A stretch of DNA of 33,978 nt. It comes from an archaeon. GTDB taxonomy: Archaea > Thermoproteota > Thermoprotei_A > Marsarchaeales > Marsarchaeaceae. The DNA is taken from NCBI GenBank assembly GCA_021800035.1, contig JAJYZJ010000021.1:1-33978 (forward strand), in the 5' to 3' direction. A program made the position numbers and the translations under genes. Below are positions 2,681 to 28,513 of this stretch, in pieces. The notes below the pieces were generated by a model. That model was not told the origin of the DNA and did no database searches. It saw only the letters and a program-made list of their open reading frames with translations. Each line of letters begins with the position of its first letter. Position 1 is the first letter of the stretch.

Positions 2681-2690
2681 TTTCGAGCCT

Positions 2691-4763
2691 TCACCTCTGC
2701 TCCTCTTCCTGGTCCTCCGCCGCGAGCCAGCGGCCCGTGGTCCCGAACTCTGCGAGTTCGTCCTCGCTGGGCTGAACGTGCACCGAAAGCAGGTGGTTGC
2801 CGCTGCGCATGAGCGCGTCCCCCTCTTCCGCGCCGAGCAGGGCCCGGGCTTCCTCCTCCCTCAGCCTGTAGACCTCTTCCAGCACTGAAAGCGCCGCGGG
2901 TCTCTGGCGGAAGAGGAGCGACGTCGCGGCCATCTCGAGTATTGTCCTTCCCGCGCCGCTCTTCGCCACGTCCCAGGGGCGCTGGGTGACGAACACGAGC
3001 GACTTGTTGTATTTTCTCGCCTGGCGCGCGAGACTCTCGAGAACTCCCATGGTCGCGGGGTAGTCCACGAACAGCCACGCTTCGTCCACAAAAAAGATAC
3101 CCTTTCCGTAGTCGGAGAACAGCTCGCGCTCGAGGTACACCGAGAGAAGCGTCATCACGAGCGCCTTCAGGCGGTTGCCGGAGCCCACCCTCGTTTCCTC
3201 CAGGCCTTTCAGCCCGAAGACCACGTCACCTTCGAGCTTCGGGGTGTCCCCCGAGAACACAAGCGAGTCGGGAGGGGCGAGAGTGCCTTCGAGATAGGAG
3301 AAAAGAGTGCGGGATGTCCCGTCCTTTTCTCCTTCGGCCCTGAGGAGCGCGCAGAACTTCTCCACGCTCTTCGCCTTCGCACCAAAGTCGAACACCCTTT
3401 TCCTCATCGCGTTCGAGAGCGCTTCGAAGCTTTCGTCCCTGGGGAGGTAGAACTCGGACAGGAGCGAAGACACGTCCTCGGGCCTGAACGAGCCCGGGTT
3501 TGCCCGCGCGAGGCGGAACGGGTCCAGCCCGAGCTCGGCTCCGGGGCTCACTTTGACCGCGTTCGCCGAACTGGTGATCTTCCCGAGCACGTTCACGTAT
3601 TCGTTCGCAGGGTCTATCCCGAAGAGCCTCAGGTCTGCTCCGTGCCTCGCCTTCAGGCGCTTGAGGAGAAGCTTAACGGCTAGCGATTTCCCCGCGCCGG
3701 TTTCTCCCAAGATTACGACGTGCGGGTTCGGCGCGGCCCAGGGGTCAAAGAGCACAGGCGAACCGGTTGCGGAAGTGCCGAGAAAGACGCCCCCCGGGTC
3801 CACCAGTTCTTCCGATATCAGCGGGTAGAAAACCGAAGCCGAGGCTGTGTCCACGTAGCGGGGCTTAAGAGAGGCAAAGCCCAGACTGGATTCGCCTGAT
3901 GTCCTGTACTCGTAGAGAGCGCGCTGAAAAAAGCGCGGTACGTCTATGTCGAACAGCCGCCTTCTCGCGACGCCCCGGATTGCCTTCCTCCTTTCCCTGA
4001 GCCCTGCAGGGTCCGGGGCGGAATAAAGGAACCAGCACCAGAACCTGAGCAGTTTCGCGCTCGAGCCCACGCCCTGGGCGAGCCTTTCGACTTTCGCGAG
4101 TTTCTGGTGAATCCGAATCGACACTACCCTTTCGGAAGCGAGTTCGGTGAGCCTGTTCTTGACGCGGTCGACCAGCGTTACCGCGGACGCCTGGTCGAGC
4201 GCTTCCCACTTGAACACGACTTCGTCCACGAGCGGGAAGTATTCGTAGAGGAAGCCCTCGGGAATCGTCGCAGGGAAGGAATAGAGCATGGCTAGCTCGG
4301 CAATCCGTGTTTGGCCGCTAGCCTCAAGGAGGAGCAGATGGTCCGCGCTTTCCGATATGAGTTTCTCTTTGTTCGGCGGGGCGGCGAGTTCTGCGTTAAA
4401 GAAATCGGAGCCGATCACGGGTTCCGCTGATTCGGCGAGTTTGGACCGCGCCTCCTTTTCCGCTTTGTGCATCCCCTTGGTCTCTTGCGCAGTCGGGCGC
4501 TCAATACCGAGATAGAACTCTGTGTAGCTCACCCCACTCCCCTCCGCCTTGCCCTCCACGCTGTAAAGCGTCCTCCTTGAACGACAGAGCACGAGTCCGC
4601 GGTCCACAAGGTTGAACAACTCAACGAACTTCCTTTCCAGACTGTCTTTTTCGTCGTCATTCAGTAGCTCGAAAGTGCTGGGCTGGAGAATGTACCAATC
4701 ATAAGCGTCATTACTGTCCGCATGGTAGGGGGAACCAGCCCGACTGGATTCAGTGCTTTGCAC
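2691..4763 (-). CDS. VirB4-like conjugation/DNA-transfer ATPase
   Basis: A 690-residue cytoplasmic motor ATPase of the VirB4/TraC/HerA-like class, which powers type IV secretion and, in archaea, Ced/Ted DNA import. The Walker A motif GETGAGKS is at residues 353-360 and Walker B GIFFVDEAW at 555-562, followed by the FVTQRPWDV sensor-like segment usual in VirB4. The N-terminal 300 residues fit a VirB4 N-domain. The open frame extends to 5000, but the upstream part is low-quality coding sequence. I chose GTG 4763 because a TATA-like box at 4783-4790 lies about 25 bases upstream, predicting a nearly leaderless message. It is the first gene of an operon with the PrgI-like and surface proteins. The VirB6/VirB2 partners lie separately at 11.2-14.0 kb. 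A HerA-type DNA translocase is the alternative, but the PrgI neighbour favours VirB4. Confidence 0.85.
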   Translation of the reverse strand: MQSTESSRAGSPYHADSNDAYDWYILQPSTFELLNDDEKDSLERKFVELFNLVDRGLVLCRSRRTLYSVEGKAEGSGVSYTEFYLGIERPTAQETKGMHKAEKEARSKLAESAEPVIGSDFFNAELAAPPNKEKLISESADHLLLLEASGQTRIAELAMLYSFPATIPEGFLYEYFPLVDEVVFKWEALDQASAVTLVDRVKNRLTELASERVVSIRIHQKLAKVERLAQGVGSSAKLLRFWCWFLYSAPDPAGLRERRKAIRGVARRRLFDIDVPRFFQRALYEYRTSGESSLGFASLKPRYVDTASASVFYPLISEELVDPGGVFLGTSATGSPVLFDPWAAPNPHVVILGETGAGKSLAVKLLLKRLKARHGADLRLFGIDPANEYVNVLGKITSSANAVKVSPGAELGLDPFRLARANPGSFRPEDVSSLLSEFYLPRDESFEALSNAMRKRVFDFGAKAKSVEKFCALLRAEGEKDGTSRTLFSYLEGTLAPPDSLVFSGDTPKLEGDVVFGLKGLEETRVGSGNRLKALVMTLLSVYLERELFSDYGKGIFFVDEAWLFVDYPATMGVLESLARQARKYNKSLVFVTQRPWDVAKSGAGRTILEMAATSLLFRQRPAALSVLEEVYRLREEEARALLGAEEGDALMRSGNHLLSVHVQPSEDELAEFGTTGRWLAAEDQEEEQR

Positions 4764-4782
4764 AACTGTTCGCCCGCGCAGC

Positions 4783-4790
4783 TTTAAGTA
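4783..4790 (-). promoter_or_regulatory. TATA-like box of the VirB4 operon
   Basis: On the minus strand the sequence reads TACTTAAAGC, an archaeal TATA-like box centred about 24 bases from the proposed GTG start at 4763. The transcript would be leaderless or nearly so. Confidence 0.5.
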
Positions 4791-5318
4791 CCCAAATTGA
4801 AGCGTCGGGCCCAGCCGATTTCCACATAGGGTCAACGTCACCCAAACTGCAGCATGACTGCCAAACGTCCCTGCGCAGGACCGATTCAAGAAGGAGCTAT
4901 GAGAGGAGAACGGAATGCCAATCGGGACTCCGAGAGCGTATTCCCTCGATGGAAATCCGAACGGGGTGCATGGGCTTGGTGGTATTGTTCTGTTTCGCAC
5001 CCACGAAGATTGGCTGCTTCTCTCCCCCCTTGTGCGACGGGGACAAGCTGACGAATCGGAGCAGCATCGTGCACATAGTTACGACTCCTCGGAATCGAAT
5101 CGCCAGAAAATCTTCCACTTAAATTCCTGAAGATGAGAATTAGTTTGTAGATATTGCCAACGAATATGTCAGTGCATATGACTCCTGTGCAGACTCATAG
5201 ACAGAATTCGCTCAAAAGATTCGGGTAGGTTGCGGAGATAATACTAGCTGCGATGACTATCTCTCCCCAAACTTCTTAAATGTTAGCCTAGCTATCAATT
5301 TTTTTGTCCTCCCAGAAA
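4791..5318. other. Intergenic, no gene seen
   Basis: I found no supported coding frame, RNA gene or clear repeat in these 528 bases. Short frames in both directions have implausible composition. Confidence 0.5.
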
Positions 5319-9384: not shown

Positions 9385-9970
9385 GTGTATAGTGCCGTTA
9401 CCATTGTAGGGCCGGCGTGTCGGCTGACGGGAAAGAAGGGCAAGCAGTTGCTGCAGGACCCAAAGACCGCTCTCTGGCACTCGACTAGTAGGCAATCGAT
9501 CAAGGCTGTCTATCTCCGAAGGCTCGGATGCCTCTTCGAGAATTACCACACCGATCAGGAAGAATTCGTGGAGATGGCGCCGACCCAGAGACGCGACGGG
9601 CTACAGAGGGCAATCAACGACATGTAGCAGAAGGGGAAGTCTGGGGGAAAGATGGAGAGCTACGTCAAGGCGATAAAGCCATGGCTCGGCTTGAACGAAA
9701 TAGAAATCAGGTCAGGAAGAACTAAGGGGTCAACGGACAAGCCCACGCACAGGAACGAAAGAACGCCCATACAGGGAGAACTCAAAAAAAAGATGCTTCT
9801 TGCCGGAGCCCCCCGAACAAAGGGTCGCATGCGTGCTTATCGCCCACTCAGGTTTGAGGCTGGAGGCGTTGGTAGACTCTCGTGGTGAGGGTGGCCTTGG
9901 GGTATCTGATTTTCCGGAACTGGAAATCAGGGGTGTAGATGTAACCTTCAAGAAATTCCAGCAATCATAA
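9385..9970 (+). pseudogene. Degraded archaeal tyrosine integrase, C-terminus missing
   Basis: A broken tyrosine recombinase. The N-terminal core-binding part reads through ALWHSTSRQSIKAVYLRRLG to AINDM, is interrupted by TAG at 9625-9627 (likely an old CAG), resumes in the same frame with ESYVKAIKPWLGLNEIEI, then shifts frame near 9830. The second frame gives CVLIAHSGLRLEAL and GLGVSDFPELEIRG, carrying the first catalytic Arg (SGLRLE) of archaeal integrases, and stops at 9970. The second half, with the catalytic His/Arg box and Tyr, is missing. It is the same kind of integrase as the remnant at 14.8-15.5 kb and is also cut after the Arg-I region. It marks a decayed integration event next to the RAMA nuclease gene. 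Confidence 0.75.
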
Positions 9971-10005
9971 GGATAAGAAAGGAGCTGAGCAAGGCGGGCA
10001 CGAAT

Positions 10006-10296
10006 CTACTGCCTCGTCAGCCACGACCTCAGGTCCTTCCGTGTGGTCAATGCCAGTTGGCCGTCTCGCCATTGGTGACAGGCGGGACACTCTTCTCCAA
10101 TCTTGGCTCCGAGGGTTCTGCAGTTCGGGCATTCGTCAGCGCCTTGTTTTCTTGTTCCCGCATAGTATCGCAGGTACTGGTGCCGTACCCTATAGTGGGC
10201 CCAGCGATGTTTCGTTATCCAGCGTTCGCAGATGTCGCAGTAGAACCTGCCCTTTTTCGTTGTGCGGGATAATGCAAGGAACTCCGACCAATCCAA
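10006..10296 (-). CDS. Small zinc-finger protein
   Basis: A 96-residue basic protein with two putative zinc sites: CDICERW...HRWAHYRVRH, a C2H2-like finger, and CPNC...CPAC, a zinc-ribbon. Such small proteins in archaeal mobile regions are usually DNA-binding regulators, but no specific family is recognised. The TTG start at 10296 is uncertain: the frame is open for seven more codons, including an in-frame CTG (ESLRDLDWSEF). A TATA-like stretch (AGATATTTGTTC, minus) lies about 38 bases upstream. The gene is between the broken integrase and an unknown gene on the same strand. Confidence 0.65.
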   Translation of the reverse strand: MDWSEFLALSRTTKKGRFYCDICERWITKHRWAHYRVRHQYLRYYAGTRKQGADECPNCRTLGAKIGEECPACHQWRDGQLALTTRKDLRSWLTRQ

Positions 10297-11180: not shown

Positions 11181-13358
11181 TCAGCGGTTCAACTTCTTGA
11201 ATTCCTGGCTCTTTGTTACTTTTTGCGCACCGAACGCGCTGAGCCGAGTGTGCCCGAAAGGATTGTATCCTAACATCGTGTGCAGGTGTTCGCCGGCTCT
11301 CTGAGCATAGTGCGGACCGAGCGAGAGCACGTTGTTCCACATCACCTGTGGAACCGTCTTTACCGACGCGCCAGCCTTTCCGATAGTAGTTCGCTCCCAG
11401 ACCCCGGCGCTCGGACTGAACTGGGCTGACGATACGCTTTTCACTGCACGAGGAGAGCCGGGCTTCCAGCCCAAGCCCGGCGACCTGCCCGCGATTGTCA
11501 CGTCCGAACCCGCAAACCTTTCCCTGCCAGCGGAAGTGAACGCCTGATGCAGCCCCGTGTACGCGCGAGCCGATGAACCGGGCTGGACAAGTCTCGTGTA
11601 TCCCACTGTCGCCCCAAGGGCTGAGGAATAGGGAGCAGAAGCTCTCGCCGAGTATGCCGCCTGGGCGCCAGTCGCAGCCGTGCTACCCGCCGCTACGGGG
11701 GCCGACGTTCCTCCCCCTCCTCCCGTTCCCGCTCCCTGCCCTGAGCCGCCCCCGCCCGCGCCGAAGAATCCTCCCATGCCGGCCTGAAGTGATTCTCCCC
11801 TCGCCCTCCTGACGAGCCCTCCGAAGCCGGCACCGCCGCCGGTGAGCTCGAACGAAACGAAGAATGGAAGTAGCGCGAAGAACACCGGGCTGCCGAGAAG
11901 CACCGCGAGAGAAATCCCGGAGGGGTCAGCGTACGCGACCTTTCCGATGAGCGCGAGAACTGCCCCTGCTATGAGCCCTGATATAGCGAGCCCAACTTCT
12001 ATCTCGAACACAAACGAGATGACTTTCCTGAACGGCGGAAAGAGCCAGAGCACCGCGAGTATCGGGGCTGCGACGAAAAGCGCGCCTATCAGGACGAACC
12101 TGAGAACTGCGAGCGCTATCGTTACGAGAAGCGCGAACGTGATGTCTGCCGCGAGATTCGCTAGATAAGGCACGAAGTAACCAACCGAAGCCCCGAGGAT
12201 TATTATGGGGAGATCGGCGGCGAGAAGTAGCCCGGGGTCGCCGTAGTCCACGAGGTGAACTCCTATCGTGTTCACCATCACCGCAAACGCGTTGTAGAAG
12301 TATGGTAGCGTGAGTATTATCGCGACGACGAGCATCAGCTCCTTCGAGAGCCCTATCACCGCCCCCGTGAGATCCTCCGCTCCTTCGGTCCAGAGCGTCC
12401 AGAGTATGTCCGAGACAAGGAATATCCCGACGAGCCCGAGCGCAGCGCCCTCGGTGTACGAGTACATCGCCGCAAGAGCGTCTCCCATCCCGGAGCCGTA
12501 GCCCGTGGTGTGGCCCACGGTGGGCATCTGCACAAAGAAGGAGAAGGGAGCGTTCAGGACCCCCTGAATCCAGGTGAGCGCGGGTAGTATTGCGGACACG
12601 AACCCGAGGAAGCCTGCGACTATCCAGCCGAAGGCGCCCGCCGCGGGAGGGCTCGCGCTGTTGTAGACCGTGACCACAGCCGAGCCGCTTATCGAGCCCC
12701 CGGCTCCGCTGTCCGTGGCCACTATCGTATAGGTGCCGTTCGCCTGGTAGATGTGCGCGGCGCTGAAGCTCGCGCTCGAGCCGAGGTTCGTAGTCGAGCC
12801 GTCACCCCAGCTCAGGCTAACGGAGCCCGAGAAGTTGGGCGGGAAGACTCCGCCAGTGACTTCCACTAGGAGCGGGGCCTTTCCGGCCGCGGGGCTCGCG
12901 GTTAGCTCCATATAGCCGTAAGTGGTCCCCGGGAGCCCTGTCGCCCCGAACCAGGCCGGGCCGAAGTTGAACGCAAGGAGAATGAGCGCCGCGACAGCGA
13001 AGTAGCCCACGGCCTTTTCGATGTGGCCGAGCAGGAGATAGAGCGCGGAGGCTCCCACGGAGAGAGCCGCGCCCGCGTAAGCTAGGAGCGTGATGTCGGA
13101 CGCCCCCGGAAACGAGTTCGAGCTCGCTCGAAAGGCGGACGTGAGAATTATCCAGCCGAAGGAGAGCACGAATGCGGCTGCGATGGTACCCACGAGGAAG
13201 CGCCCTCCTTCCTTCGGTTTGCCCATGGCGAAGAGCAGAGCGGACAGCGCGACCCCCGCGGCTACCGCGACCCAGACCGCGTAAAAGAAGTAGTCCACAA
13301 GACCGTTCAGGAAGCGCGCGAGCGAAAACAGCAGAAGCATCGACGCGGCCAAGGTCAT
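11181..13358 (-). CDS. VirB6/TrbL-like channel with pilin-like N-terminus and PKD domain
   Basis: A 725-residue polytopic membrane protein. Order, numbered from the ATG: residues 16-78 mirror the neighbouring VirB2-like pilin (LVDYFFYAVWVAVA, then LSFGWIIL); two more helices follow; a PKD domain lies at 150-234 with the characteristic SWGDG at 183-187 and GTYTIVATDS; then about seven membrane helices at 245-530 form a VirB6/TrbL/CedA-like channel; a Gly-rich hinge and a 140-residue basic tail end the protein. VirB6-type proteins form the inner-membrane DNA channel of type IV secretion. The start is ATG 13358 behind GGAAG; GTG 13379 is an alternative. It lies downstream of the VirB2-like gene, and the VirB4/PrgI genes are about 6.4 kb away. 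The pilin-PKD-channel fusion is unusual. Confidence 0.8.
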   Translation of the reverse strand: MTLAASMLLLFSLARFLNGLVDYFFYAVWVAVAAGVALSALLFAMGKPKEGGRFLVGTIAAAFVLSFGWIILTSAFRASSNSFPGASDITLLAYAGAALSVGASALYLLLGHIEKAVGYFAVAALILLAFNFGPAWFGATGLPGTTYGYMELTASPAAGKAPLLVEVTGGVFPPNFSGSVSLSWGDGSTTNLGSSASFSAAHIYQANGTYTIVATDSGAGGSISGSAVVTVYNSASPPAAGAFGWIVAGFLGFVSAILPALTWIQGVLNAPFSFFVQMPTVGHTTGYGSGMGDALAAMYSYTEGAALGLVGIFLVSDILWTLWTEGAEDLTGAVIGLSKELMLVVAIILTLPYFYNAFAVMVNTIGVHLVDYGDPGLLLAADLPIIILGASVGYFVPYLANLAADITFALLVTIALAVLRFVLIGALFVAAPILAVLWLFPPFRKVISFVFEIEVGLAISGLIAGAVLALIGKVAYADPSGISLAVLLGSPVFFALLPFFVSFELTGGGAGFGGLVRRARGESLQAGMGGFFGAGGGGSGQGAGTGGGGGTSAPVAAGSTAATGAQAAYSARASAPYSSALGATVGYTRLVQPGSSARAYTGLHQAFTSAGRERFAGSDVTIAGRSPGLGWKPGSPRAVKSVSSAQFSPSAGVWERTTIGKAGASVKTVPQVMWNNVLSLGPHYAQRAGEHLHTMLGYNPFGHTRLSAFGAQKVTKSQEFKKLNR

Positions 13359-13622
13359 GCTGCTTCCTTCTTCACGCACCGAGGCTGGTCTCGAGCTTGG
13401 TTCTCGGCTCAGGCAAGTAAAATTACCAAAAGTTGCGGGTGAGCATCTGTAAGAGCGGCTGGTTGCTTCAACCTGAGCCCAGTTGCGAGCCTCATATTAC
13501 TTCTCCCCCAGCGTTTGGTCCCTCTTTTCACTGAGCTCGTGTTTTCTTCTCTGTTGGCCGCCGGCTTCAATGCCGCGCTGCTTCCTCCCTCTGCCCCATA
13601 CTCTTGCTTGCTCCAACGCAAG

Positions 13623-13952
13623 TCAGAGCGCCCCGTTCAGTATGGCCCAGCCGAAGCTGAGTAGGAAAGCTCCTATGAGAACCCCTTCGAGCGCCCGCTT
13701 GAATCCGTCGCTCGTGTGTCCCCCGTTATGAACCGCTATCGCTGCGTAGGCGAGCATCCCAGCAACAGCGATCCATGCGGCGTAAAACAGGAAGTCCACG
13801 AGTGTTATGAGGCCCTGCGAACCGGGAAATGCCTGCGGGCTCACCGTGAAAGGAGCCTGGGCGGCCGCGAACGCGACTTCGCGAGCAAAAGATGCAAGCG
13901 AGCAAAAAAGGCTCGCAGCCAGTACCCCCCTTAGGCGCGTGCGTATGCCCAT
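13623..13952 (-). CDS. VirB2/CedA1-like conjugative pilin
   Basis: A 109-residue protein. A basic, hydrophobic N-terminus (MGIRTRLRGVLAASLFCSLA) ending near AFAAAQA looks like a cleavable signal peptide. The mature part has two membrane helices (51-75 and 89-108) joined by a short polar loop (HNGGHTSDGFKR), the standard architecture of VirB2/TrbC pilins, which in archaea form Ced/Ted DNA-import pili. Residues 51-64 and 98-105 match the N-terminal domain of the VirB6-like protein downstream almost residue for residue. It is the first gene of the locus, 31 bases from a TATA box shared with the divergent DUF1286-like gene. The 264-base spacer to the VirB6-like gene holds only an unconvincing 70-codon frame. 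Confidence 0.8.
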   Translation of the reverse strand: MGIRTRLRGVLAASLFCSLASFAREVAFAAAQAPFTVSPQAFPGSQGLITLVDFLFYAAWIAVAGMLAYAAIAVHNGGHTSDGFKRALEGVLIGAFLLSFGWAILNGAL

Positions 13953-14645: not shown

Positions 14646-14771
14646 TGACGATGTGGGTAAGGTCAGGACCCCAACTAGAAGCACCGCTCTTAATGTCCGG
14701 CGAATCCCGACCGGTCCATTTAATCTATTAATCGAATACTTTTTCTCGGTTATTGTTATGTTCTCATGACC

Positions 14772-15520
14772 ATGTAGCCGAAGTATCAGGAACTGCTTCT
14801 TGACGAGGACGTGCGAAGATGGTTTGAGAACCTCAGGGCGAAGTCAGTTCTCACGGCAACAGTGGCATTGAGAAATCTGGGGCATTATTGCGAGCTTACA
14901 GTAACGACACCAAAGGAAATCATGAACAGAGCCCGATTAAACGACAAGGATTTCCGCTACGAGTTTGCGGACTTTGTCAGAAAGCTTGAGAAGGAGGGCA
15001 AGGCATGATCATACATTGCTAAGGTTCAAGAAGGTCATTCTTTCATGGCTGAAGTTTAACGATATCCGTTTGCAGTTAACCGTTAACATATCTGGCGAGA
15101 ATGAAACACCCACGATAGCTAACGAGAGAGTTCCGAGCAGGGAAGAACTGGCAAGGATAATGAGAAAAGCCACATCAAGAGGCAGGGTTGCCATAGCGAT
15201 CATGGCATTCTCAGGCCTCAGGCCGGAGTCCCTGGGAGACTATGAAGGCACAGACGGTCTCAGGCTTGGCGACATCAAGGATTTGCATATATCGGATGAA
15301 ATCCGGTTTGAGAAGGTTCCAGCAACCGTAATGGTCAAGAGCAAGCTGAGCAAGGCAAGGCACCAGTATTTCTCTTTCATGGGAGAGGAAGGTGCAACCT
15401 ACATCAAGGAATATCTGGAAGAGCGGAGAAAACAGGGAGAAGAGCTTACCTATGAATCCCCGCTACTGCAGTTTGACGTGAGAGGTGTCAAGAAGAACTC
15501 TTTCCTTCCAAGTTCTATCA
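14772..15520 (+). pseudogene. Degraded archaeal tyrosine integrase, truncated
   Basis: A broken tyrosine recombinase. The second codon is TAG (ATG 14772, TAG 14775), followed by an intact core-binding domain (PKYQELLLDEDVRRWFENL, LTATVALRNLGHYCEL). A TGA follows after EGKA (near 15008), and a frame change in SYIAKV leads into ILSWLKFNDIRLQLTVN. The catalytic-domain start is preserved (FSGLRPESLGDYEG with the first catalytic Arg, LRLGDIKDL, SKLSKARHQYFSF). The gene ends abruptly after KKNSFLPSSI, where ParA-like sequence begins, so the second Arg, His and Tyr are lost. It is related to the remnant at 9.4-10.0 kb. Together they show repeated integration by one integrase type. Confidence 0.8.
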
Positions 15521-15580
15521 ATGATCATATCCATCGCCAACCAGAAGGGAGGCTGCGGAAAGACAACCACTGCAGCCTGA
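15521..15580 (+). pseudogene. ParA-type ATPase start fragment
   Basis: Nineteen codons reading MIISIANQKGGCGKTTTAA and then TGA. This is the N-terminus and deviant Walker A of a ParA/Soj-type partition ATPase. It is cut off at once and joined to Orc1/Cdc6 sequence at a 10-base direct repeat. Only the fragment remains, so no function is expected. Confidence 0.75.
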
Positions 15581-15588
15581 TCATATCG
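15522..15588 (+). repeat. 10-base direct repeats flanking the ParA fragment
   Basis: TGATCATATC occurs at 15522-15531 and 15579-15588, exactly bracketing the ParA-like fragment between integrase and Orc1/Cdc6 remnants. It is a likely micro-homology recombination scar. Confidence 0.6.
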
Positions 15589-16102
15589 TATTCCATGAAT
15601 ACAGCACGGAGGAGATTCGTGAGATATTGAGGATGAGGGCAAAGGAGGGCCTGAATGAATGTGGCAAAGAGTCCCTGGGCCTCTTGTCTGCACTTCTCGT
15701 ACGAGACTACAGAAGCGACGCAAGGATCCAAATAAGGCTCTGGAAATTCTTGGCAGAAGCAATAAATGGGACGAGGACTCAATCAAGACAGCACTGAAGC
15801 AGGCTTACGTGGAGGTGGAAGGCGAAACGCTAAAGAACCTTGGAGACCGGGACCTGCTGATACTGGCAGCACTGGTCAAGAATCAGGATACCAACAGGGC
15901 GTATTCCGAAGTTTCTGCATCCAGTCATTTGTTGCTCAGGGGAGTGAGCAAGTCAACGTTCTTCCAGAGCGTCAATTATTTGCAGAACCTTGGCCTTATC
16001 ACATTGATCAAGAAGAAGATAGGCAGATATTACACAATGGAGTCACAAATATTATTATCTGATGAGTCTATTGTATACGGGGAGCTAAGAAAGAGGCTTT
16101 AG
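15577..16102 (+). pseudogene. Orc1/Cdc6-like replication initiator, C-terminal fragment
   Basis: Only the last part of an Orc1/Cdc6 initiator remains. The first frame reads DHIVFHEYSTEEIREILRMR, typical of the AAA+ lid, then GLLSALLVRDYRSDARIQIR (sensor-2-like). Near 15740 the frame shifts to ALEILGRSNKWDEDSIKTAL, followed by a winged-helix DNA-binding domain (LGDRDLLILAALVKN ... STFFQSVNYLQNLGLITL) that ends at 16102. The Walker A and B half is gone. With the ParA start and the integrase, this suggests a decayed integrated plasmid or virus that once replicated autonomously. An assembly join is an alternative. The wing-containing part alone could still be translated from a downstream start, but I see no good one. 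Confidence 0.7.
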
Positions 16103-16129
16103 TTAGCACTCAATATCGTGGTGTTTTAC

Positions 16130-18226
16130 ATGGTTGATTCGTCGGAGGAAAAAAGTGATCCCACTCAGAGAAGTGGAAATGGACAAAGGAAATCACTAAT
16201 TGAAGAGCTGCCAAGAATAGTAGAAAGAGGAAAAAAAGAGGCTCAAAGAATCCTCGATGGACTTTCTAAGACACAAAGAATAACTCTTCAGACTAATGAA
16301 TTGGTCCTGCCGACTAAGGCCGTTGGAGAATTAACCAAGTTCACGGGTCAAGCTGTAAAACGAGAAAACAACAATGAGTTTCTTAACAGGCTCATATACG
16401 GTGATAATCTGCTTGCGATGCAGGCACTTCTAGCTGGGGACCCAGACACAGGACTCCCCTCAATGAGGGGCAAAATAGACCTGATTTATATCGATCCACC
16501 CTTTGATAGCAAGGCAGACTATAGAATAAAAATACATCTTCCATCTGTAGACATTGAACAAAGGCCTTCGGTTATAGAACAGTTCGCTTACTCGGATACT
16601 TGGAAGGATGGGACAAAGTCATACTTGGAAATGATTGTTCCAAGACTTGTTCTAATGAGGGAACTATTAAGTGAACAGGGCTCAATATATGTGCATATCG
16701 ATTGGCATGTCGGACACTATGTAAAAGTTATAATGGATGACATTTTTGGTAAAGAAAACTTCGTTAACGAAATAATATGGAAAAAATCAAATAGCCCTAA
16801 AGCTCAATCTAAGGGGTTTGGAACACAACATGACACTTTATTTTTATATTCTAAAGGGCGAGAATTCATATATAATCCAATAAAAAGAGAACCTGATGAA
16901 GATTATTTAAAATCTTTCTCAATGGATGACAAAGATGGAAAAGGGGCATATCAGAGCGTTGCCTTGGTTGCTGGGGGTATTCAACGTTCCGAGCACAGAA
17001 AGGTTTTTGATTTCAAAGGTGTAGTTGCCCCGTGGTTATACACTCCTGAAAACCTTGAGAAATTCTGGCAAGAGAACAGAATTATTAAAACTAAAAATGG
17101 GTATAGGTTAAAAGTTTATCTGGAAGATGTAGGTGGGCCTCTCATTTCTGATATTTGGTTTGATAAGAATGTAAGTCCTATTCAGGGACAGTCCAGTGAA
17201 AAATTAGGATATGATACTCAAAAGCCAAAGTCACTGTTAAGCCGGATTATTTCAGCCTCAAGCAAAAAAGACTCCTTGATCGCAGATTTCTTCTGCGGTT
17301 CCGGAACGGCGGGCTCTGTTGCAGAAAGACTTGGAAGAAATTGGATTATGTGTGATCTCGGTAAACCTGCTTGTATGATCTCTAGAAAACGTCTCATTGA
17401 TCAAAATGCAAAGCCATTTCTTTACCAATCAATTGGAGACTACCAGAAAGAACAGTTTGAAAGATCGCAATTCAGGCGTATAGGGGACCTTGCTCACGTT
17501 GTGATTAACCTGTATGGTGCACTTCCCTTTCCGATGCAAGAAGGCACTCCTACCAATCTAGGATATATAAAACAAAGTAAAACCTTGGTATTTGTCGACT
17601 CTCCCACAAAAATCACTGGTTATGTTACACTCAAGAAGGCTCAGGAGCTAAGAGCTTCCTTCATGGGTGGATGGAACAAAGTAATTGTCCTTGGTTGGAA
17701 CTTTGAGGCTGAGATAGGAAGGACCATAGACAGCCTGAATGATGATAACCTCGAAGTACTGGTGATTCCCCCGGACCTGCTGGAAAAGCTAAAGCACAAA
17801 GCAGACTATGAGAAACTCATAAAGGAAGGCAGCGTTAGATTCAGCTCCTTACAATACCTCACTGTTAAACCAGTGATCAAGAAAGCAGCGGAAGACAACT
17901 TGGAGGAGATAACGATTGAACTTGAAAACTACGTTCTCCTGTCCCCAGATGCACTACCTCTCGATAGGTCGGATAAGGACAAACTTGAAAAGATCATTGA
18001 GGAAGACCCTTTGAGTCTCGTCGAGTACTGGAGTATCGATCCGGAATATGATGGGGAAGTATTCAGGAGCAAATGGCAGGATTACAGAGAAAACCACGAA
18101 GGTACATCGAAAGTCGATAGGAAAGTGAAGCTGCTCGTCCCCCGCGTTAATGGGGTAAGAAAGGTCTGCGTGAAAGCGGTGGACGTATTCGGGTTTGAAA
18201 GCGTGGCGATCAAAGAGGCCAGTTGA
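16130..18226 (+). CDS. mod: Type III restriction-modification DNA methyltransferase (Mod)
   Basis: A 698-residue adenine-specific methyltransferase, the specificity and modification subunit of a type III system. Motif IV DPPF (LIYIDPPFDSK) lies at about residues 122-125 and the AdoMet-binding DFFCGSGTAGS at about 388, with motif IV before motif I, the beta-class order used by Mod proteins. The region between should hold the target-recognition domain. ATG 16130 is preferred; an in-frame GTG pair lies at 16118-16123. The stop overlaps the Res ATG as TGATG, so the two are coupled. The segment is more AT-rich than the backbone and follows integrase debris, suggesting transfer. No stop or frameshift was seen, so the gene looks intact. 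Confidence 0.9.
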   Translation: MVDSSEEKSDPTQRSGNGQRKSLIEELPRIVERGKKEAQRILDGLSKTQRITLQTNELVLPTKAVGELTKFTGQAVKRENNNEFLNRLIYGDNLLAMQALLAGDPDTGLPSMRGKIDLIYIDPPFDSKADYRIKIHLPSVDIEQRPSVIEQFAYSDTWKDGTKSYLEMIVPRLVLMRELLSEQGSIYVHIDWHVGHYVKVIMDDIFGKENFVNEIIWKKSNSPKAQSKGFGTQHDTLFLYSKGREFIYNPIKREPDEDYLKSFSMDDKDGKGAYQSVALVAGGIQRSEHRKVFDFKGVVAPWLYTPENLEKFWQENRIIKTKNGYRLKVYLEDVGGPLISDIWFDKNVSPIQGQSSEKLGYDTQKPKSLLSRIISASSKKDSLIADFFCGSGTAGSVAERLGRNWIMCDLGKPACMISRKRLIDQNAKPFLYQSIGDYQKEQFERSQFRRIGDLAHVVINLYGALPFPMQEGTPTNLGYIKQSKTLVFVDSPTKITGYVTLKKAQELRASFMGGWNKVIVLGWNFEAEIGRTIDSLNDDNLEVLVIPPDLLEKLKHKADYEKLIKEGSVRFSSLQYLTVKPVIKKAAEDNLEEITIELENYVLLSPDALPLDRSDKDKLEKIIEEDPLSLVEYWSIDPEYDGEVFRSKWQDYRENHEGTSKVDRKVKLLVPRVNGVRKVCVKAVDVFGFESVAIKEAS

Positions 18227-21150
18227 TGGTAAACATAAAATCCCTTGGCACCAAGGATATCCCATTAAAACTTGCGAAAAGAATAACCGAGAAAGCCGAC
18301 GAGTTGTGGAAATCCGGAGACTTCATGCAGAAAGTCACACCCATAACACAGGAACTTCTGAAATTCTGGGACCCAGAGGGTATTTTCTCTGAAGAAAGAA
18401 ACATTAACTTCCATGTGGGCCAATGGCAAGCCATTCTGAATGTGATTTACGTCCATGAGATTCTCAAACTCAAGAGTGTTGGAGAAATCTACGATCATAT
18501 CTATCCTGAATTGTTGGCTCAAATGGACCCGCTTGATCTGAAGCGGGATAAGTACGAGCATCAGAAGTATTGCGTTAAGATGGCCACAGGAACTGGCAAG
18601 ACCTGGGTCCTTGATGCATTGCTGATCTGGCAATACCTAAATTCAAAGTACGAAGAAAACGAAAGCGGTGAGTATTCCAGGAATTTCCTCCTGGTTGCTC
18701 CGGGAATCATTGTCTATGAAAGGTTGTTAGATGCGTATCTGGGAAAGCGAAGAGAAGATGGGAGCAGGGATTTTGAGCAGTCCGATTTCTGGAAATTTGA
18801 AAAGCTCTTTATTCCTCCCGCACGCAAGGACGAGATCTTTGGATTTATCCAGGGCTGTGTATCACAGAAGGAAGAAATCGGCAAGAAGGTGACTGGTGAC
18901 GGCTTGATCGCAATAACCAACTGGCACCTGCTGACAGAGGATGAGGAGGCTATTGATGTCGAATCCCCGTTGGACCAGCCAGATATGACGGTGAATGAGC
19001 TGCTGCCGATTACACCCGGGAATTCACAGGGACACTCGCTGGAAGAACTGGACAATCAATATCTCAGGGGCCAGGAACTGGATTACCTGGCTAATTTACC
19101 CAATCTCGTAGTTTTCAATGACGAGGCCCACCACCTTGGAGAGATGAAGAAATCGGACGAAATCGTGGAGAAAAAATGGCAGGAAGCACTCGACAAGATA
19201 TCAGAGAACAAGAAGAGCCGCCTCATTCAAGTTGATTTTTCTGCAACTCCCTATGTGGTAACAGGAAGCGGCCAGAGCAGGGTACAAAATCACTTTCCGC
19301 ACATTGTGGCCAATTTCGAACTGGTGGATGCAATAAAGAAAGGACTTGTGAAAACCGTTGCAATCGACAAGAGAAAGGAGTTCGGCGCCATACCTCTGGA
19401 TGACCTGGAATTTAAAGCGGAACGAGAGGGCAGGCAGGTGTCAAGTCTTTCTGATGGTCAGAAACTGATGTTGAGGGCTGGAATGAAGAAACTCAACATA
19501 CTGGAGCAGGAATTCACAAAGCTTGATCCAACAAAATACCCGAAGATGCTTGTCGTTTGTGAAGATACTAAGGTAGTGCCTCTTGTTGTGGCCTTTATGA
19601 CGCATGAGGGCTATTCCGGGGATGAAGTAATGGAGATTCATTCCACCAAGAAAGGTGACGTCAGTGAAGAGGAGTGGAGGGCAATAGAGCAGAGATTGTT
19701 CGATATAGATCGACATGAGAAACCAAAGGTGATAGTTTCTGTCCTGATGCTCAGGGAAGGATTTGACGTAAACAACATATGCGTGATAGTTCCTCTCAGA
19801 TCTGCATCCTCTTACGTTCTTCTAGAACAACTGATAGGAAGGGGCCTGAGGCTGATGTGGCGTGGACCAGACTACGATGATATGAGAGCAGAAAACCGGG
19901 AAAAACTCCTGGTGAAGAAGGAGGAGCCGGACAGTTACATCGACATATTGAGCGTGGTCGAGCATCCAAACTTTATCGAGTACTATGAAAGAGTCCTTGC
20001 GGGAATGGTTGGCAAAGTTGGAGAAGAGCCAGCAAAGACAAAGGTTGTTGGTGACCTGGTCAGGGTCGGGCTCAAACCAAACTACAGAGTTTATGACCTT
20101 TTCTGGATCATAATATTGCAGGAGAAGGAGGAAGAACTGGCGGTTCCTGACTTCTCTATTGAGAAGCTTGCACCTTTCCCCATGAAACTGAAAGATTTGA
20201 GACCTTTGGTAAAGAACAAGGGAGACACCTTTTACAGCGAAGAACTCACGGTCAAGACAACCTTTGGAGAATACATAGTCACTGCCGATATATTCACGGC
20301 CAAGAGCTACAATTCGTTCATCCAGAAGGTGGTGAATGCCGTCTCTGTGATCCATGTCAATGCCAGAGGAAGAAAGCAGAGAGATTTCCCGGTGATGCAG
20401 GTGAATTCAGCGTTAATCGCCAAGCTTACGGATGAGTACATAAGACACAGGCTGTTCGAAGAGGAATTTGATCCTCTCAAGGACAACAACTGGCGCATCC
20501 TGTTGATAACACGGCAGAGCATAATCAAACACATAGTCAGTAACATTGCCCAAGCCGTATACGATTCCATGAAGAGCCTCAAGGTGAACGACGCAAGGAT
20601 AGTGAAGAAGTATTTCTCAGAAGTCCCAGAAATAAGGGTAAGAGAAACTTATGCGATTAACGCTGCAAAAAACATTTATGAAAAGATTGCGTACCCGTCT
20701 CACAGCGGCGGTTTTGAGAAGGACTTCATCGAGTTCATAGATTCAGACTCAAAAGTAAAGGCGTTTGTGAAGATAAACGAATACTACAACGATTTCGCTA
20801 ACATCATCTATATCCGGGACGACGGACTGTTGGCACATTACTACCCTGATTTCATGATCAGGGCATGTGACCAGATTTACCTGGTTGAGACAAAATCTGA
20901 AAGAGATATGAGCAACAAGAACGTGCAAAATAAGAGGCTGGCAGCAATAGATTGGGTAGACAAGGTGAATGAACTGGAGCCCCAAGAGAGGATGAACTGT
21001 AACTGGAGCTATGTGCTGCTCAGCCAGAATACATTCGAGCAGATGAAGAAGCAGGGAGCCACCACTTGCGAGATACTGGAATATGCCAAACTTACAAAGG
21101 CAAAGGTGAGAGGTACGCTGGGAGATTACATGGGCCTTAAGGACTATTGA
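18226..21150 (+). CDS. res: Type III restriction enzyme, helicase-nuclease subunit (Res)
   Basis: A 974-residue SF2 helicase with a C-terminal nuclease. Walker A ATGTGKTW is at about residue 120, DEAH (VVFNDEAHHLG) at 298, DFSATPY at 336 and the motif VI region QLIGRGLRLMWRG at about 540. The PD-(D/E)XK site appears at the C-terminus as YPDFMIRACDQIYLVETKSE (about 872-891). Res works with Mod to translocate along DNA and cut unmodified sites. Its ATG overlaps the Mod stop (TGATG). The length matches family members and the frame is intact. A RelE/ParE-like toxin gene starts 23 bases after its stop, probably in the same transcript. Confidence 0.9.
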   Translation: MVNIKSLGTKDIPLKLAKRITEKADELWKSGDFMQKVTPITQELLKFWDPEGIFSEERNINFHVGQWQAILNVIYVHEILKLKSVGEIYDHIYPELLAQMDPLDLKRDKYEHQKYCVKMATGTGKTWVLDALLIWQYLNSKYEENESGEYSRNFLLVAPGIIVYERLLDAYLGKRREDGSRDFEQSDFWKFEKLFIPPARKDEIFGFIQGCVSQKEEIGKKVTGDGLIAITNWHLLTEDEEAIDVESPLDQPDMTVNELLPITPGNSQGHSLEELDNQYLRGQELDYLANLPNLVVFNDEAHHLGEMKKSDEIVEKKWQEALDKISENKKSRLIQVDFSATPYVVTGSGQSRVQNHFPHIVANFELVDAIKKGLVKTVAIDKRKEFGAIPLDDLEFKAEREGRQVSSLSDGQKLMLRAGMKKLNILEQEFTKLDPTKYPKMLVVCEDTKVVPLVVAFMTHEGYSGDEVMEIHSTKKGDVSEEEWRAIEQRLFDIDRHEKPKVIVSVLMLREGFDVNNICVIVPLRSASSYVLLEQLIGRGLRLMWRGPDYDDMRAENREKLLVKKEEPDSYIDILSVVEHPNFIEYYERVLAGMVGKVGEEPAKTKVVGDLVRVGLKPNYRVYDLFWIIILQEKEEELAVPDFSIEKLAPFPMKLKDLRPLVKNKGDTFYSEELTVKTTFGEYIVTADIFTAKSYNSFIQKVVNAVSVIHVNARGRKQRDFPVMQVNSALIAKLTDEYIRHRLFEEEFDPLKDNNWRILLITRQSIIKHIVSNIAQAVYDSMKSLKVNDARIVKKYFSEVPEIRVRETYAINAAKNIYEKIAYPSHSGGFEKDFIEFIDSDSKVKAFVKINEYYNDFANIIYIRDDGLLAHYYPDFMIRACDQIYLVETKSERDMSNKNVQNKRLAAIDWVDKVNELEPQERMNCNWSYVLLSQNTFEQMKKQGATTCEILEYAKLTKAKVRGTLGDYMGLKDY

Positions 21151-21173: not shown

Positions 21174-21440
21174 ATGAGCTATACTGTAGAATCCACGGAA
21201 GCATTCGAGAAGGAATTCTCCAGGAACCATAAGGACGAAAAAGAATGGTTGCTTCGTATGACTGAAAGACTGGAACAGGAACAGGAACCGCAGTCAGGGA
21301 AGCCGTTGAGAGGCAAGCTTCACGGACTATGGCAGCTCAGAATCGGCTCTTTCAGGGTCTGGTATGAAATAAACGAGGAGCAGAAGAAAGTGACGCTCAG
21401 AGCAATCATTCACAAAGACGAAGCAAAGAAGTATTATTAG
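21174..21440 (+). CDS. RelE/ParE family toxin
   Basis: An 88-residue protein (MSYTVESTEAFEKEFSRNHK) with the RelE/ParE-fold pattern: the helical segment is followed by GKPLRGKLHGLWQLRIGSFR and VWYEINEEQKKVTLRAIIHK, ending KKYY. RelE-type toxins cleave ribosome-bound mRNA; ParE-type members poison gyrase. The conserved RIGxFRVWYEI is closer to RelE. It starts 23 bases after Res and likely shares its transcript. Its 3' end overlaps by four bases a convergent antitoxin-like gene that carries a premature stop. If the antitoxin is inactive, the toxin must be silent, weak or neutralised elsewhere. Confidence 0.85.
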   Translation: MSYTVESTEAFEKEFSRNHKDEKEWLLRMTERLEQEQEPQSGKPLRGKLHGLWQLRIGSFRVWYEINEEQKKVTLRAIIHKDEAKKYY

Positions 21441-21613
21441 AGCTCTTTCAGGAACTCTCTAACGTTCCTGACTCTTCCCTTCTGTATGTCCTACTCGCTC
21501 CTTTCCGGTTGATCCATAGCATACTCATTCTCAAGAGTTTCAATGGTAGCCTCAAGGCTATCCAGATCCGATTTTGGAATGCTTACAAGCCTTGACTGTT
21601 TTGCTGTGGTCAT
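21437..21613 (-). pseudogene. RelB-type antitoxin with premature stop
   Basis: A 59-codon gene beginning ATG: MTTAKQSRLVSIPKSDLDSL, EATIETLENEYAMDQPERSE, then TAG at 21491-21493, then DIQKGRVRNVREFLKEL and a normal TAA. The pattern (basic N-terminus, long helix, C-terminal REFLKEL) fits RelB-like antitoxins. The TAG may be a mutated CAG, leaving a 40-residue product without its C-terminal toxin-binding part. It is convergent with the toxin and overlaps it by four bases, unlike the usual tandem antitoxin-toxin order. A TATA-like AGGTATTAAAATC (minus) lies about 27 bases upstream, predicting a leaderless message. It could be the cognate antitoxin or one left by a lost neighbour. Confidence 0.65.
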
Positions 21614-21654
21614 AATATAACTCTATATTCTTTCAGATTTTAATACCTTTTGGT

Positions 21655-22080
21655 ATGCTTCGGCTCAAATTCACCTCGACTTTCAGCCACCCCTCTTTGA
21701 GCCTTCGCCAATTACCATGTGCCCTTCGCTCGTCTGTACGCCGAGCACAGGACGCCATGCTTCGACTCCAATCAAAATTCACCCCTAACCCCTCTTTTGA
21801 CTTACGTCTCGCACTCTTCTTCGAAGAGCCCCTCATTCGCAAGGCTCATTCAGGGTGGTGTCCTGTGCTCGCCGCTCGTGGTGTATGTGTGGTGCTACAC
21901 ACCTTCGCTTCGCTTGGTGTTCCACACCACCCACCGCTAACGCTTACACCACTCGGTCTTGCTTCGCAAGACTTCCGGCTCGCTTCGGGCACATTATTCT
22001 CTCCTGCGGAGTGCAATTTGAGGGGAACAGGGGGAGGGGAATTTTTGACCGCACAAGAACGCTACGCTCAGTGCGGAATT
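21655..22080 (+). repeat. Intergenic repeat cluster with TTC-loop palindromes
   Basis: Two copies of the GCTTCG...AATTCACC repeat at 21655-21675 and 21757-21786. Short perfect palindromes with a TTC or TCC centre follow: CTCTTCTTCGAAGAG (21814-21828), GGTGTTCCACACC (21916-21928) and GTCTTGCTTCGCAAGAC (21956-21972). Open frames here show low-complexity Arg/Leu/Ser-rich translations, so I see no gene. Such elements suggest a non-coding mobile repeat family or the remains of one. Confidence 0.5.
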
Positions 22081-22200
22081 ACGGGGATATAAGGGGTTCT
22101 CGTACCGTGCTGCTCTTCAACTGTTCAAGGGACAATACCTGCACGGCACTGCGACCATACTTTTTGAGAAAAGGTAGGCTAAAAGGAGTATTCAAGAAGG

Positions 22201-22258: not shown

Positions 22259-24283
22259 ATGAAAATGACAAAATTCAGAGTACAAAACTACAAGAAAATC
22301 CAAGATACAGGCTGGATTGATTGCTCAGATTTGACTGTCTTCGTCGGAAAGAATGAATCAGGAAAATCTTCTATTTTTAGGGGGCTTTCCAAACTTAACC
22401 CCTCTGATGGAGAGAAGTATGATGGTCTAAAGGAGTTTCCAAGACGACGTTACGCGAGTGATTTCAAGACACAAGACTGGCCAGTATCCAGTGCAGAATT
22501 CACCATTTCTGACGATGAAAAGAAGGCTATCAGTCAAGCTTGTCCTTCGCTTAAAGACGTTACATGTGTGGTGTGTACAAGGCACTACTCTCAAAAATTT
22601 GAAGTTGAGTTTGACCCACAGCCAAGCATACCGGATGTGACAAATGATAAGGTGTTGGCAATTCTTGAAGCAGTACAAACCAAATTGCAAACAGCTGTGG
22701 CCCCGGAAGGTAAAGGTGAGGCTTTGGGTGCTATCAAGTCACAGCTTCTTCCTTTTATTTCCCAAAAGATTTCGCAACTTCGAACTCTTAAACCCCATGA
22801 TTCCGTGGGGGAACCAACAATAACTGAAGTAATCAATACAATATCACCCAAGATTAACGAAGAATGGCAGAAAAATATCATAAAGAGCGAATTGGACCTA
22901 CTCAATCAACTAAAATCTTCAACAGAGTCGGTAAATCAGCTCAATAAGGCAAAGGAATGGGTAACCTCGCATCTTCCTAAATTTGTGTACTTTGATAGAT
23001 ATGACGTAATTGACAGCGCAGTCCATCTGCCGACATTCATTCAACAGATGAAAACCAACCCAACAGCGCCACGTGTGAGATCAACCAAAGCGTTATTTCA
23101 GCATGTAGGATTAGAAGTTGATAAACTCTCTCAGCTTGACCCAACGCAGCCAAATAAAGCCGCCGAAGAGTTGAAGAGATTCGCTGATGAAAGAGCTATA
23201 CTCATGTCTTCGGCTTCGAACGAAATGACGAAGCGCTTTTCTGAATGGTGGGAACAAAGGAAACACAGGTTCAACTATAAGACGGACGGACCGTTCTTTA
23301 GAGTTTGGGTGTCAGACGACTTAGACCCAAGCGAAATAGAGCTTGACCAAAGAAGTGCAGGTATGCAATATTTCTTTTCATTTTACCTTGTGTTTCTAGA
23401 GGAAGCCAAAGGCGCGTACAATAATTCAATACTCCTGCTTGATGAAGCTGGTTTGCAACTGCATGGAACGGCCCAGCAAAAGATAGTCAAGTTCTTAGAG
23501 AAACTATCAAACGACAATCAACTGCTCTATACTACTCATTCTCCATTTATGATAGATGGAGACAATCTTGAAAGGGTGAGGATTGTCTACGAGGACCCGA
23601 CTGATGGCACCTCTAAGGTTTCTGGTGATGTTTGGCCGAGAGATAAAGACTCTTTATTCCCTTTGCAGGCGGCTTTGGGGTATTCTATAGCTCAAACACT
23701 GTTTTATTCTAAACGACAACTGGTAGTTGAAGGCATTACTGATTACCTGATTCTAAAGGCCATGGATAGTTTACTATCAGATTCTAAAAGGGAAACTTTG
23801 CGACATGACGCCACTATTGTCCCTTCTGGTGGAGTTAGCAAATTGATGCCGTTGGCAGCAATGTTAAAGGGTCATGGAGTGGAAACCCGTGTATTGTTGG
23901 ATGGTGACGACCCCGGAGTACAAAAAGGAAAGGAAATCAAGGATCGTCTTTTAATTGAGTCTTTTTTCGTGAGTTCATACACAAACGGAGGAGGAACTGA
24001 CATCGAAGACATGTTTCCACACGACCTTTACGTAGATGCAGTCAAGAAGTCATATAATTTAAGCGAATTAGTTTTAGATGAGAACAGTGGCTCTGACTCC
24101 ATAACAACAAAAGTCGAAAAGGCTTTGCAGAAGAAAGGAATTAATAATCTTGAAAAACGGAGACCTGCCTTTGTGCTCACTGAGTGGATTAGGACCGAAC
24201 CTGAAAAGTTTCCGAACAGTACGCTAACTTCCTTCGAAAGTCTGTTCAGGGACATTAACAAGTCTTGGTCTGATCAAGAATAG
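22259..24283 (+). CDS. OLD-family ATPase/TOPRIM nuclease
   Basis: A 674-residue protein of the overcoming-lysogenization-defect family, which combines an ABC-type ATPase with a TOPRIM nuclease and often acts in anti-phage defence. Walker A GKNESGKSS is at 30-38. The signature-like region RSAGMQYFFSFYL leads to Walker B ILLLDEAG at about 391 and the His loop LLYTTHSPFMID at about 425. TOPRIM residues are VVEGITD at about 488 and LLDGDDPG at about 546. The frame ends with tandem stops TAGTAA. No UvrD-like GajB helicase or reverse transcriptase is adjacent, so this is a stand-alone (class 1-like) OLD rather than Gabija or a retron. It sits at the far side of the restriction-modification region and has its own promoter. 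Confidence 0.88.
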   Translation: MKMTKFRVQNYKKIQDTGWIDCSDLTVFVGKNESGKSSIFRGLSKLNPSDGEKYDGLKEFPRRRYASDFKTQDWPVSSAEFTISDDEKKAISQACPSLKDVTCVVCTRHYSQKFEVEFDPQPSIPDVTNDKVLAILEAVQTKLQTAVAPEGKGEALGAIKSQLLPFISQKISQLRTLKPHDSVGEPTITEVINTISPKINEEWQKNIIKSELDLLNQLKSSTESVNQLNKAKEWVTSHLPKFVYFDRYDVIDSAVHLPTFIQQMKTNPTAPRVRSTKALFQHVGLEVDKLSQLDPTQPNKAAEELKRFADERAILMSSASNEMTKRFSEWWEQRKHRFNYKTDGPFFRVWVSDDLDPSEIELDQRSAGMQYFFSFYLVFLEEAKGAYNNSILLLDEAGLQLHGTAQQKIVKFLEKLSNDNQLLYTTHSPFMIDGDNLERVRIVYEDPTDGTSKVSGDVWPRDKDSLFPLQAALGYSIAQTLFYSKRQLVVEGITDYLILKAMDSLLSDSKRETLRHDATIVPSGGVSKLMPLAAMLKGHGVETRVLLDGDDPGVQKGKEIKDRLLIESFFVSSYTNGGGTDIEDMFPHDLYVDAVKKSYNLSELVLDENSGSDSITTKVEKALQKKGINNLEKRRPAFVLTEWIRTEPEKFPNSTLTSFESLFRDINKSWSDQE

Positions 24284-25179: not shown

Positions 25180-26361
25180 CTAACGCCTGCGCCATATAAC
25201 GAACGCAGCGGCTGCAACAAGCGCGACAGCAGTCACCATGGCCACAAAGCCTAGCGGTTGCGTCCGAACGGAGGGACTGGAAGTTGAGAATTGAGAAGTA
25301 GGCGAGCTGCTCTGAGCCACAGCCTTGGAGCTGCTCGTCGGAGTGCTCATGCTCGGGAGAGTTTCAGTTGCCGAAGTCGTCACAGGACTCACACTCGTAG
25401 CTGCACTTGAAGCAGGTATAGTACATAATCCGCCGCCAGGAACGGTCCCGTTAAATGGCGTAAGTATCTGGTTGGTCGCCTCTGCACGAAGCTGAATCTG
25501 GTTCGCGACGAACGCCGGATAAGGCGCGGCGTTCGCGATCCTCAGGGTATAGCTACCAGGAGCGAGGAGGAGGCCATATTCCCACCAGCTGTTTGGCCCC
25601 GTGACGTTCGTGGATGTCGCGTAGGGCGCTTGAAACACAGTTCCGCTCGAGTTTATCACGGAATAGGCCACGGAAGTATTTGCAGCTCCCATAACGTCTA
25701 GAATCGTCGTCAAGGAGGAAGCCGGTAGCGGCAGACACCAAGAAGACTTCCCCAGAATCGTAGCGTTCGCCTGAGCAACTCCGTAAGGAGGAGGGTAGGG
25801 TGCCCGGAACCCGTAGCTCAGAAAGCTGACCGAGGCGCTCTGGTCTCCCGAGTTCTGCACGGCTAAGTAATACAGCGCCACGTTTGTGTCGTAAAGCACA
25901 CCAACGAGCACCACGCCCGAACCCGAGCCAGAAGCCAGAGCATAATACCTCCCGCTCGCAGATGCGTTGAATTCGTTGAGGTAGGCTGGCGCCACAATGC
26001 TCGCGTTCACCTGCACGCTGGAGTTGAGCTCGTAGTAGGCTTCTCCGTTCACTTCTCCTTCGAAGGAACACCAAATGACGCTCCGCGCGACCACGCTGAA
26101 GTTCCGCGCGCAGGGAAGTGGTACGCTCTCCGCCTGCGCAGCAGGAGGAAGTCGCATTCCGAGCGTCTGGGCCGGAAAATTTGACAGAACGGATGGCAGA
26201 ATGAGCGTCAGGACTAGGAGACAGAGAGAGGAAACCAACGTCGCCCATCTCCTCTGGCCAACTCGTATGCTCGTTTTGGATGCGCTTATGATCTGGTTAC
26301 ACCACCCGCTAACAGCGGGACGAAAGAGTCCCGTGGGACTTCCTGACCCGTCAGTCTGCAA
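25180..26361 (-). CDS. Surface protein with C-terminal membrane anchor
   Basis: A 393-residue secreted protein. The N-terminus has a basic region (RVGQRRW) and a long hydrophobic stretch (LVSSLCLLVLTLILPSVL), so it is exported. The ectodomain is beta-rich, with about a dozen N-X-S/T sequons and two likely disulphides (PCARNF and IWCSF; also SWCLP, GLCTIP). A Ser/Thr/Pro-rich linker precedes a C-terminal helix (LGFVAMVTAVALVAAAAFVIW) ending RRR, typical of archaeal surface proteins. No family is recognised. Seven bases separate it from the Tyr-rich gene upstream, suggesting an operon. The TTG start at 26361 is doubtful because three palindromes lie within its first 20 codons; a later start near the basic region is possible. 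Confidence 0.65.
   Translation of the reverse strand: MQTDGSGSPTGLFRPAVSGWCNQIISASKTSIRVGQRRWATLVSSLCLLVLTLILPSVLSNFPAQTLGMRLPPAAQAESVPLPCARNFSVVARSVIWCSFEGEVNGEAYYELNSSVQVNASIVAPAYLNEFNASASGRYYALASGSGSGVVLVGVLYDTNVALYYLAVQNSGDQSASVSFLSYGFRAPYPPPYGVAQANATILGKSSWCLPLPASSLTTILDVMGAANTSVAYSVINSSGTVFQAPYATSTNVTGPNSWWEYGLLLAPGSYTLRIANAAPYPAFVANQIQLRAEATNQILTPFNGTVPGGGLCTIPASSAATSVSPVTTSATETLPSMSTPTSSSKAVAQSSSPTSQFSTSSPSVRTQPLGFVAMVTAVALVAAAAFVIWRRR
26305..26354 (-). repeat. Three adjacent short palindromes between surface genes
   Basis: CTGAC-CC-GTCAG (26343-26354), AGTCCC-GT-GGGACT (26327-26340) and CCCGCT-AAC-AGCGGG (26305-26319) lie in a row just after the Tyr-rich gene's stop. They may structure the intercistronic RNA or mark the true 5' region of the following gene. 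Confidence 0.4.
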
Positions 26362-26367
26362 CGCATT

Positions 26368-28146: not shown

Positions 28147-28174
28147 CCGGTATCCAAATGGTTCTTGGCCAACC

Positions 28175-28181
28175 ATTTATA
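28175..28181 (-). promoter_or_regulatory. TATA box of the Tyr-rich surface gene
   Basis: The minus strand reads GGTATAAATGG, centred 32 bases upstream of ATG 28146. The ATG inside it cannot be the start because it would lie upstream of transcription. Confidence 0.6.
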
Positions 28182-28233
28182 CCGGAATTCATGAAAAGGA
28201 CAGCTGGCTGACCCCTCGGCGCCAGCGCCTGAT

Positions 28234-28482: not shown

Positions 28483-28513
28483 GCTCCCGTTGAGCATGAG
28501 CCGTGCGTGGTTC

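Follow-up and report, generated by a model that had tools for sequence, protein, structure and literature searches.

Organization of the locus

The window (the whole 33,978-nt stretch of DNA analysed here) lies on contig 10 of an archaeal genome whose assembly totals 2.12 Mb over 130 contigs, with 85% completeness and 2.5% contamination. On its + strand, and in the order given by the initial annotation, stand a broken integrase gene, 19 codons of parA and the tail of an orc1/cdc6 gene, followed by two restriction-modification (R-M) genes and further cargo (Table 1).

Table 1. Coordinates of the features at the locus, in window positions.
Feature	Position	Strand	Remarks
Attachment-site core AATCCCGACCGGTCCA	14703..14718	+	Identical to last 16 nt of Thermoplasmata tRNA-Ala
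Integrase (tyrosine recombinase) pseudogene	14766..15506	+	About residues 1-247 of 429; C-terminal catalytic part deleted
Junction 1, AACTCTTTCCT	15496..15506	+	Common to integrase and parA leader; relatives have the same CTTTCCT
parA leader and first 19 codons	15507..15577	+	Codons MIISIANQKGGCGKTTTAA at 15521-15577
Junction 2, CACTGCAGCC	15568..15577	+	Common to parA and orc1, 10 bp
orc1/cdc6 3′ half	15578..16102	+	Approximately residues 190-366 of 366; lacks the Walker A part of AAA+
Type III R-M methyltransferase (mod)	16118..18226	+	Full length; copies differ in the centre (about 16790-17280)
Type III R-M helicase/endonuclease (res)	18223..21150	+	Full length; 91.5% DNA identity to L052
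ParE-like toxin-family ORF	21174..21440	+	Conserved at that place in the element
Conserved end block of element core	21449..22184	+	With indels; homology ends near 22184 in many copies, then cargo varies
OLD-family AAA+TOPRIM gene	22259..24283	+	In variable cargo slot

The integrase reading frame extends to about position 15506. The end reported for it earlier, KKNSFLPSSI, is integrase as far as KKNSFL; PSSI is the parA leader read in the integrase frame. Four small lesions, all absent from the initial annotation, confirm decay. The integrase carries TAG at 14775-14777 (codon 4, CAG to TAG), TGA at 15006-15008 (GGA to TGA) and one additional nucleotide at 15020, and the orc1 tail, which spans 15568-16102 with the homology at junction 2 included, is frameshifted by the loss of one nucleotide after 15733. 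The remaining codons of both genes have a dN/dS of about 0.03-0.1, similar to that of intact pairs, and inactivation is therefore recent relative to the divergence of this copy.

Next to the integrase is a 16-nt core that matches the 3′ end of tRNA-Ala and corresponds to attL. The tRNA body upstream of it is absent, no tRNA occurs anywhere in the window, and no second core (attR) was found within the window. Because the attR repeat is absent, we call this copy a remnant rather than an intact member of its family; with the left tRNA body missing as well, the insertion is incompletely reconstructed.

The mod and res genes are adjacent and open, and both match their families; they are predicted to encode a type III R-M system with intact reading frames. 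The res gene aligns without gaps to its counterpart in locus L052 (2679/2928 bases identical, dN/dS 0.07), and L052, L049 and L054 have the same pair in the corresponding position. The central stretch of mod (16790-17280) differs in all copies compared, with ends that are 77-90% identical in DNA, which likely reflects recognition-domain swapping; this stretch would be the target-recognition domain. The block at 21449-22184 has indels whose lengths are not multiples of three, as well as an inverted repeat (21739-21757 / 21856-21874); it may be a non-coding region, for example an origin or a partition site. The OLD-family gene probably belongs to the element; past the conserved block, its region has no match in the genomes of 22 relatives.

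Several features of the flanks may be recorded here. A type IV secretion-like locus is suggested at 549-5000 and 11181-13952 by large membrane proteins and a VirB4-like conjugation ATPase (2691-5000). At 9436-9995 lies another decayed archaeal integrase, which shares 30% identity with that of the element, is interrupted by one TAG and is partly repeated against 15317-15356. From 25180 to 33978, pilin-like and BasF/UpsF-like proteins resemble Ups/bindosome pilus systems, with scores below curated cut-offs. The final 127 bases of the window (33852-33978) recur unchanged at the end of another contig of this genome, C39, which fits an assembly-graph overlap.

A family of integrative plasmids in Thermoplasmata

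A search with the integrase piece returned 33 loci, all titled Thermoplasmata or Thermoplasmatota except one Thaumarchaeota record and ASS_A1, the complete genome of an uncultured archaeon whose EF-2 is Thermoplasmata-like. The best of these loci share 85-93% protein identity with the window piece. From L049-L058 we define a family of Thermoplasmata plasmids that integrate at tRNA-Ala. At least eight Thermoplasmata elements are arranged as tRNA-Ala, integrase, 4-5 kb, parA, about 3 kb and orc1/cdc6, often with a type III R-M pair. The order and orientation of integrase, parA and orc1 are the same in L051, L053, L054, L056, L049 and others, and the window matches them, bearing out the earlier proposal that integrase, partition and initiator genes came from one element.

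In the relatives, the first 19 codons of the ParA gene match the window, and the Orc1/Cdc6-like gene lies farther down. The latter assignment is based on L051:8193-9290, which matches archaeal Cdc6/Orc1 chains 2v1u (1.3e-14) and 2qby (8.6e-14) over most of the protein. The gene content of L051 comprises integrase, an AAA/HerA-like ATPase, ParA, an HNH protein, Orc1/Cdc6 and cargo. The elements are bounded by direct repeats, the tRNA-Ala end on the left and AAATCCCGACCGGTCCA on the right, with a spacing of 15.3 kb in L051 and 17.5 kb in ASS_A1 (L049); in other copies just one of the two ends is seen. L049 and L055 have additional right ends, which suggest tandem remnants.

The integrase of the relatives is a complete 429-aa gene immediately downstream of tRNA-Ala, including in integrated copies. 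Since the gene stays whole upon integration and the attachment site lies outside it, the family integrase follows the type II plan. By comparison with this family, the mobility and replication genes of the window are truncated and frameshifted. Loss of the interval between integrase and orc1 is recurrent, as L046 (WH5.bin20, 1342-1809) holds a second, independent deletion derivative in which tRNA-Ala and a few initial codons of the integrase run into the tail of an orc1 gene. A protein search found no member of the integrase family in plasmid records, viral contigs lack it too, and matches of the element to plasmid records are limited to bacterial methyltransferase and type III R-M genes.

Origin of the element and identity of the host

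In the integrase tree, the window copy groups with L005 inside a Thermoplasmatota clade (support 97/88), and the element is 91% identical in DNA to Thermoplasmatota copies. These comparisons indicate a Thermoplasmatota ancestry. Judged by its EF-2 sequence, the host is clearly not one of the Thermoplasmata: identity is 45% to Thermoplasmata EF-2 and 53% to the EF-2 of the Thaumarchaeota record, and the closest PDB match is 8hl1, which we take to be a Sulfolobus acidocaldarius ribosome complex. The integrase was found in 0/228 other genomes of the host class (E<=1e-40), and the AAA/HerA-like ATPase of the element was not found elsewhere in the host genome. Those host tRNA-Ala genes that were found end in AATCCCGCCCAGTCCA, with 2/16 mismatches to the attachment core. 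A match to the core on contig 126 was rejected, as it is not a tRNA by ARAGORN.

A Thermoplasmatota-nested element in a host with such an EF-2 implies transfer between archaeal phyla, followed by decay, unless the contig is mis-binned. Mis-binning of a Thermoplasmata contig is the main alternative to inter-phylum transfer; it would leave the account of decay unaffected. The flanks argue against it. Their GC content is 55-56%, versus 42-45% for the element and 45% for Thermoplasmata copies of the element. On the left, 11893-12450 matches another contig of this genome, C72, at 98% identity, and 10006-10296 is 65% identical to a protein of a same-genus genome, encoded on that genome's EF-2-bearing contig. 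On the right, genes match Ups/bindosome pilus models, albeit below the curated cut-offs. Set against this are the Thermoplasmatota-like character of the element itself, the contamination of the bin, and the matches to the flanks in same-family genomes, which are few and too weak to reveal an empty site there. Overall, we consider mis-binning unlikely.

Two junctions with short homologies

To locate the breakpoints, we aligned the window with up to 11 relatives. At junction 1, the window follows the integrase through AAGAAGAAC(T/G)CTTTCCT and then the parA leader, CTTTCCTTCCAAGTTCTATCA-ATG, with CTTTCCT present in both. The homology is at least 7 bp (7-11 bp), with 10/11 bases shared over AACTCTTTCCT, and 4.14-5.00 kb are missing relative to the relatives. 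At junction 2, the window follows parA through CACTGCAGCC and then orc1, CACTGCAGCCTGATCA, with a loss of 2.74-3.50 kb. When random joins were simulated in L051, overlaps of at least 7 bp occurred in about 0.07% (7e-4) and of at least 10 bp in about 0.001% (1e-5). The same two junctions were found in no other genome: viral contigs lack them, and a DNA search detected them in none of the related genomes.

Comparison with intact integrase-ParA-Orc1 elements, which the initial annotation had suggested as a check, thus located both breakpoints. Its reading of the locus as a deletion scar of an integrated replicon stands, amended from one deletion to two. We are highly confident that the locus is an immobile and decaying copy of an integrative plasmid from Thermoplasmata and that the integrase-parA-orc1 join arose by two internal deletions.

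It could be argued that short repeats led the assembler to join three copies of a multi-copy element, or three parts of it. The family is indeed multi-copy in some Thermoplasmata genomes, and contigs often end inside the element, but the genome studied here (G000) has a single copy of this integrase type. Moreover, the joins involve 7-10 bp, far below usual assembler k-mers; the overlap of 127 bp with the neighbouring contig suggests k=127, and an assembly with such a long k would not be confused by repeats of 7-10 bp. Gene order and orientation are kept across the joins, and stops and frameshifts, four independent small lesions in all, flank them. An assembly artefact is therefore very unlikely.

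A site-specific or homologous recombination at the 10-base repeat TGATCATATC, said earlier to bracket the ParA piece and thereby hinted at as the recombining sequence, is highly improbable and was rejected. The repeat does occur in exactly two copies in the window, 56 bp apart, where 0.04 would be expected by chance; the first is at 15522-15531, as annotated, and the second at 15578-15587, one base from its annotated place. However, TGATCATATC, or a one-base variant of it, is native to the start of parA and to orc1 in intact relatives. The alignment contradicts a crossover within it: the switch at junction 1 is at CTTTCCT, upstream of the parA copy, and that at junction 2 is at CACTGCAGCC, upstream of the orc1 copy, so that each copy sits just downstream of a crossover and outside it. 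Being native and outside both crossovers, the repeat is not a marker of the event and is incidental.

Finally, although archaeal integrases can be split on insertion (PMC8371274), a suicidal, SSV-type (type I) integrase that was split at an internal attachment site and left its int(N) part beside foreign sequence is scarcely credible here and was rejected, since the attachment site of the family is the tRNA-Ala end upstream of the integrase, integrated copies keep the 429-aa gene, and the gene in the window breaks at the parA-leader homology rather than at an attachment site.

Discussion

The integrative plasmid of Thermoplasmata from which the locus derives measures about 15-18 kb and usually integrates at the 3′ end of tRNA-Ala by means of a lambda-style (type II) tyrosine integrase. 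It carries genes for an AAA/HerA-like ATPase, ParA, an Orc1/Cdc6-like initiator and swappable cargo, such as type III R-M genes. Annealing of short direct repeats of 7-11 bp may have removed 4-5 kb between integrase and parA, and annealing at the 10-bp homology about 3 kb between parA and orc1. The repair route could have been end joining by microhomology or replication slippage, both of which leave the same scar.

The element may have reached its present host by inter-phylum transfer and then become trapped off-target. In a fuller version of this scenario, the plasmid crossed from Thermoplasmata to another phylum, found the host tRNA-Ala unusable, was trapped at an off-target site and lost mobility and replication through microhomology deletions, whereas the host retained the type III R-M and OLD-family genes for its own defence. 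We regard the chances of this whole sequence of events as evenly balanced. The R-M pair, for its part, may have been retained because it is useful.

The integrase-parA-orc1 scar is ordinary genome decay, an event of a known kind. That it lies in a foreign element whose defence cargo is intact is of modest interest. What the analysis provides is a recurrent Thermoplasmata integrative plasmid family delimited from intact copies, one of them in a complete genome, and a decayed copy whose breakpoints are resolved to single bases. If the host assignment is true, defence cargo has moved from one archaeal phylum to another, and its carrier has decayed more quickly than the cargo itself.

Microhomology-mediated repair has been documented in Saccharolobus (PMC12019639). 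The joins described here resemble it in lying at short shared sequences, the pathway being read in our case from the scar alone. Acidophilic Thermoplasmatales harbour tRNA-associated genomic or defence islands with integrases and tRNAs (PMC5155288, PMC12302457) and R-M genes (PMC5155288). Our element is like these islands in its gene types and comes from the same organism group; the passages searched in the two papers mention neither this element nor its junctions, nor a copy in a different phylum.

A further comparison is with the archaeal type II (pNOB8-type) integrative plasmids, covered in a review of archaeal tyrosine integrases (PMC8371274). Unlike those plasmids, the element has an integrase with no sequence-detectable relative in the PDB and a marginal Pfam score, and an attachment core of about 16 bp; the copy in the window, moreover, is broken, with neither a tRNA body nor attR. 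Like them, the family places its integrase beside the tRNA end and keeps it whole after integration, and in intact relatives the duplicated tRNA end forms attL and attR.
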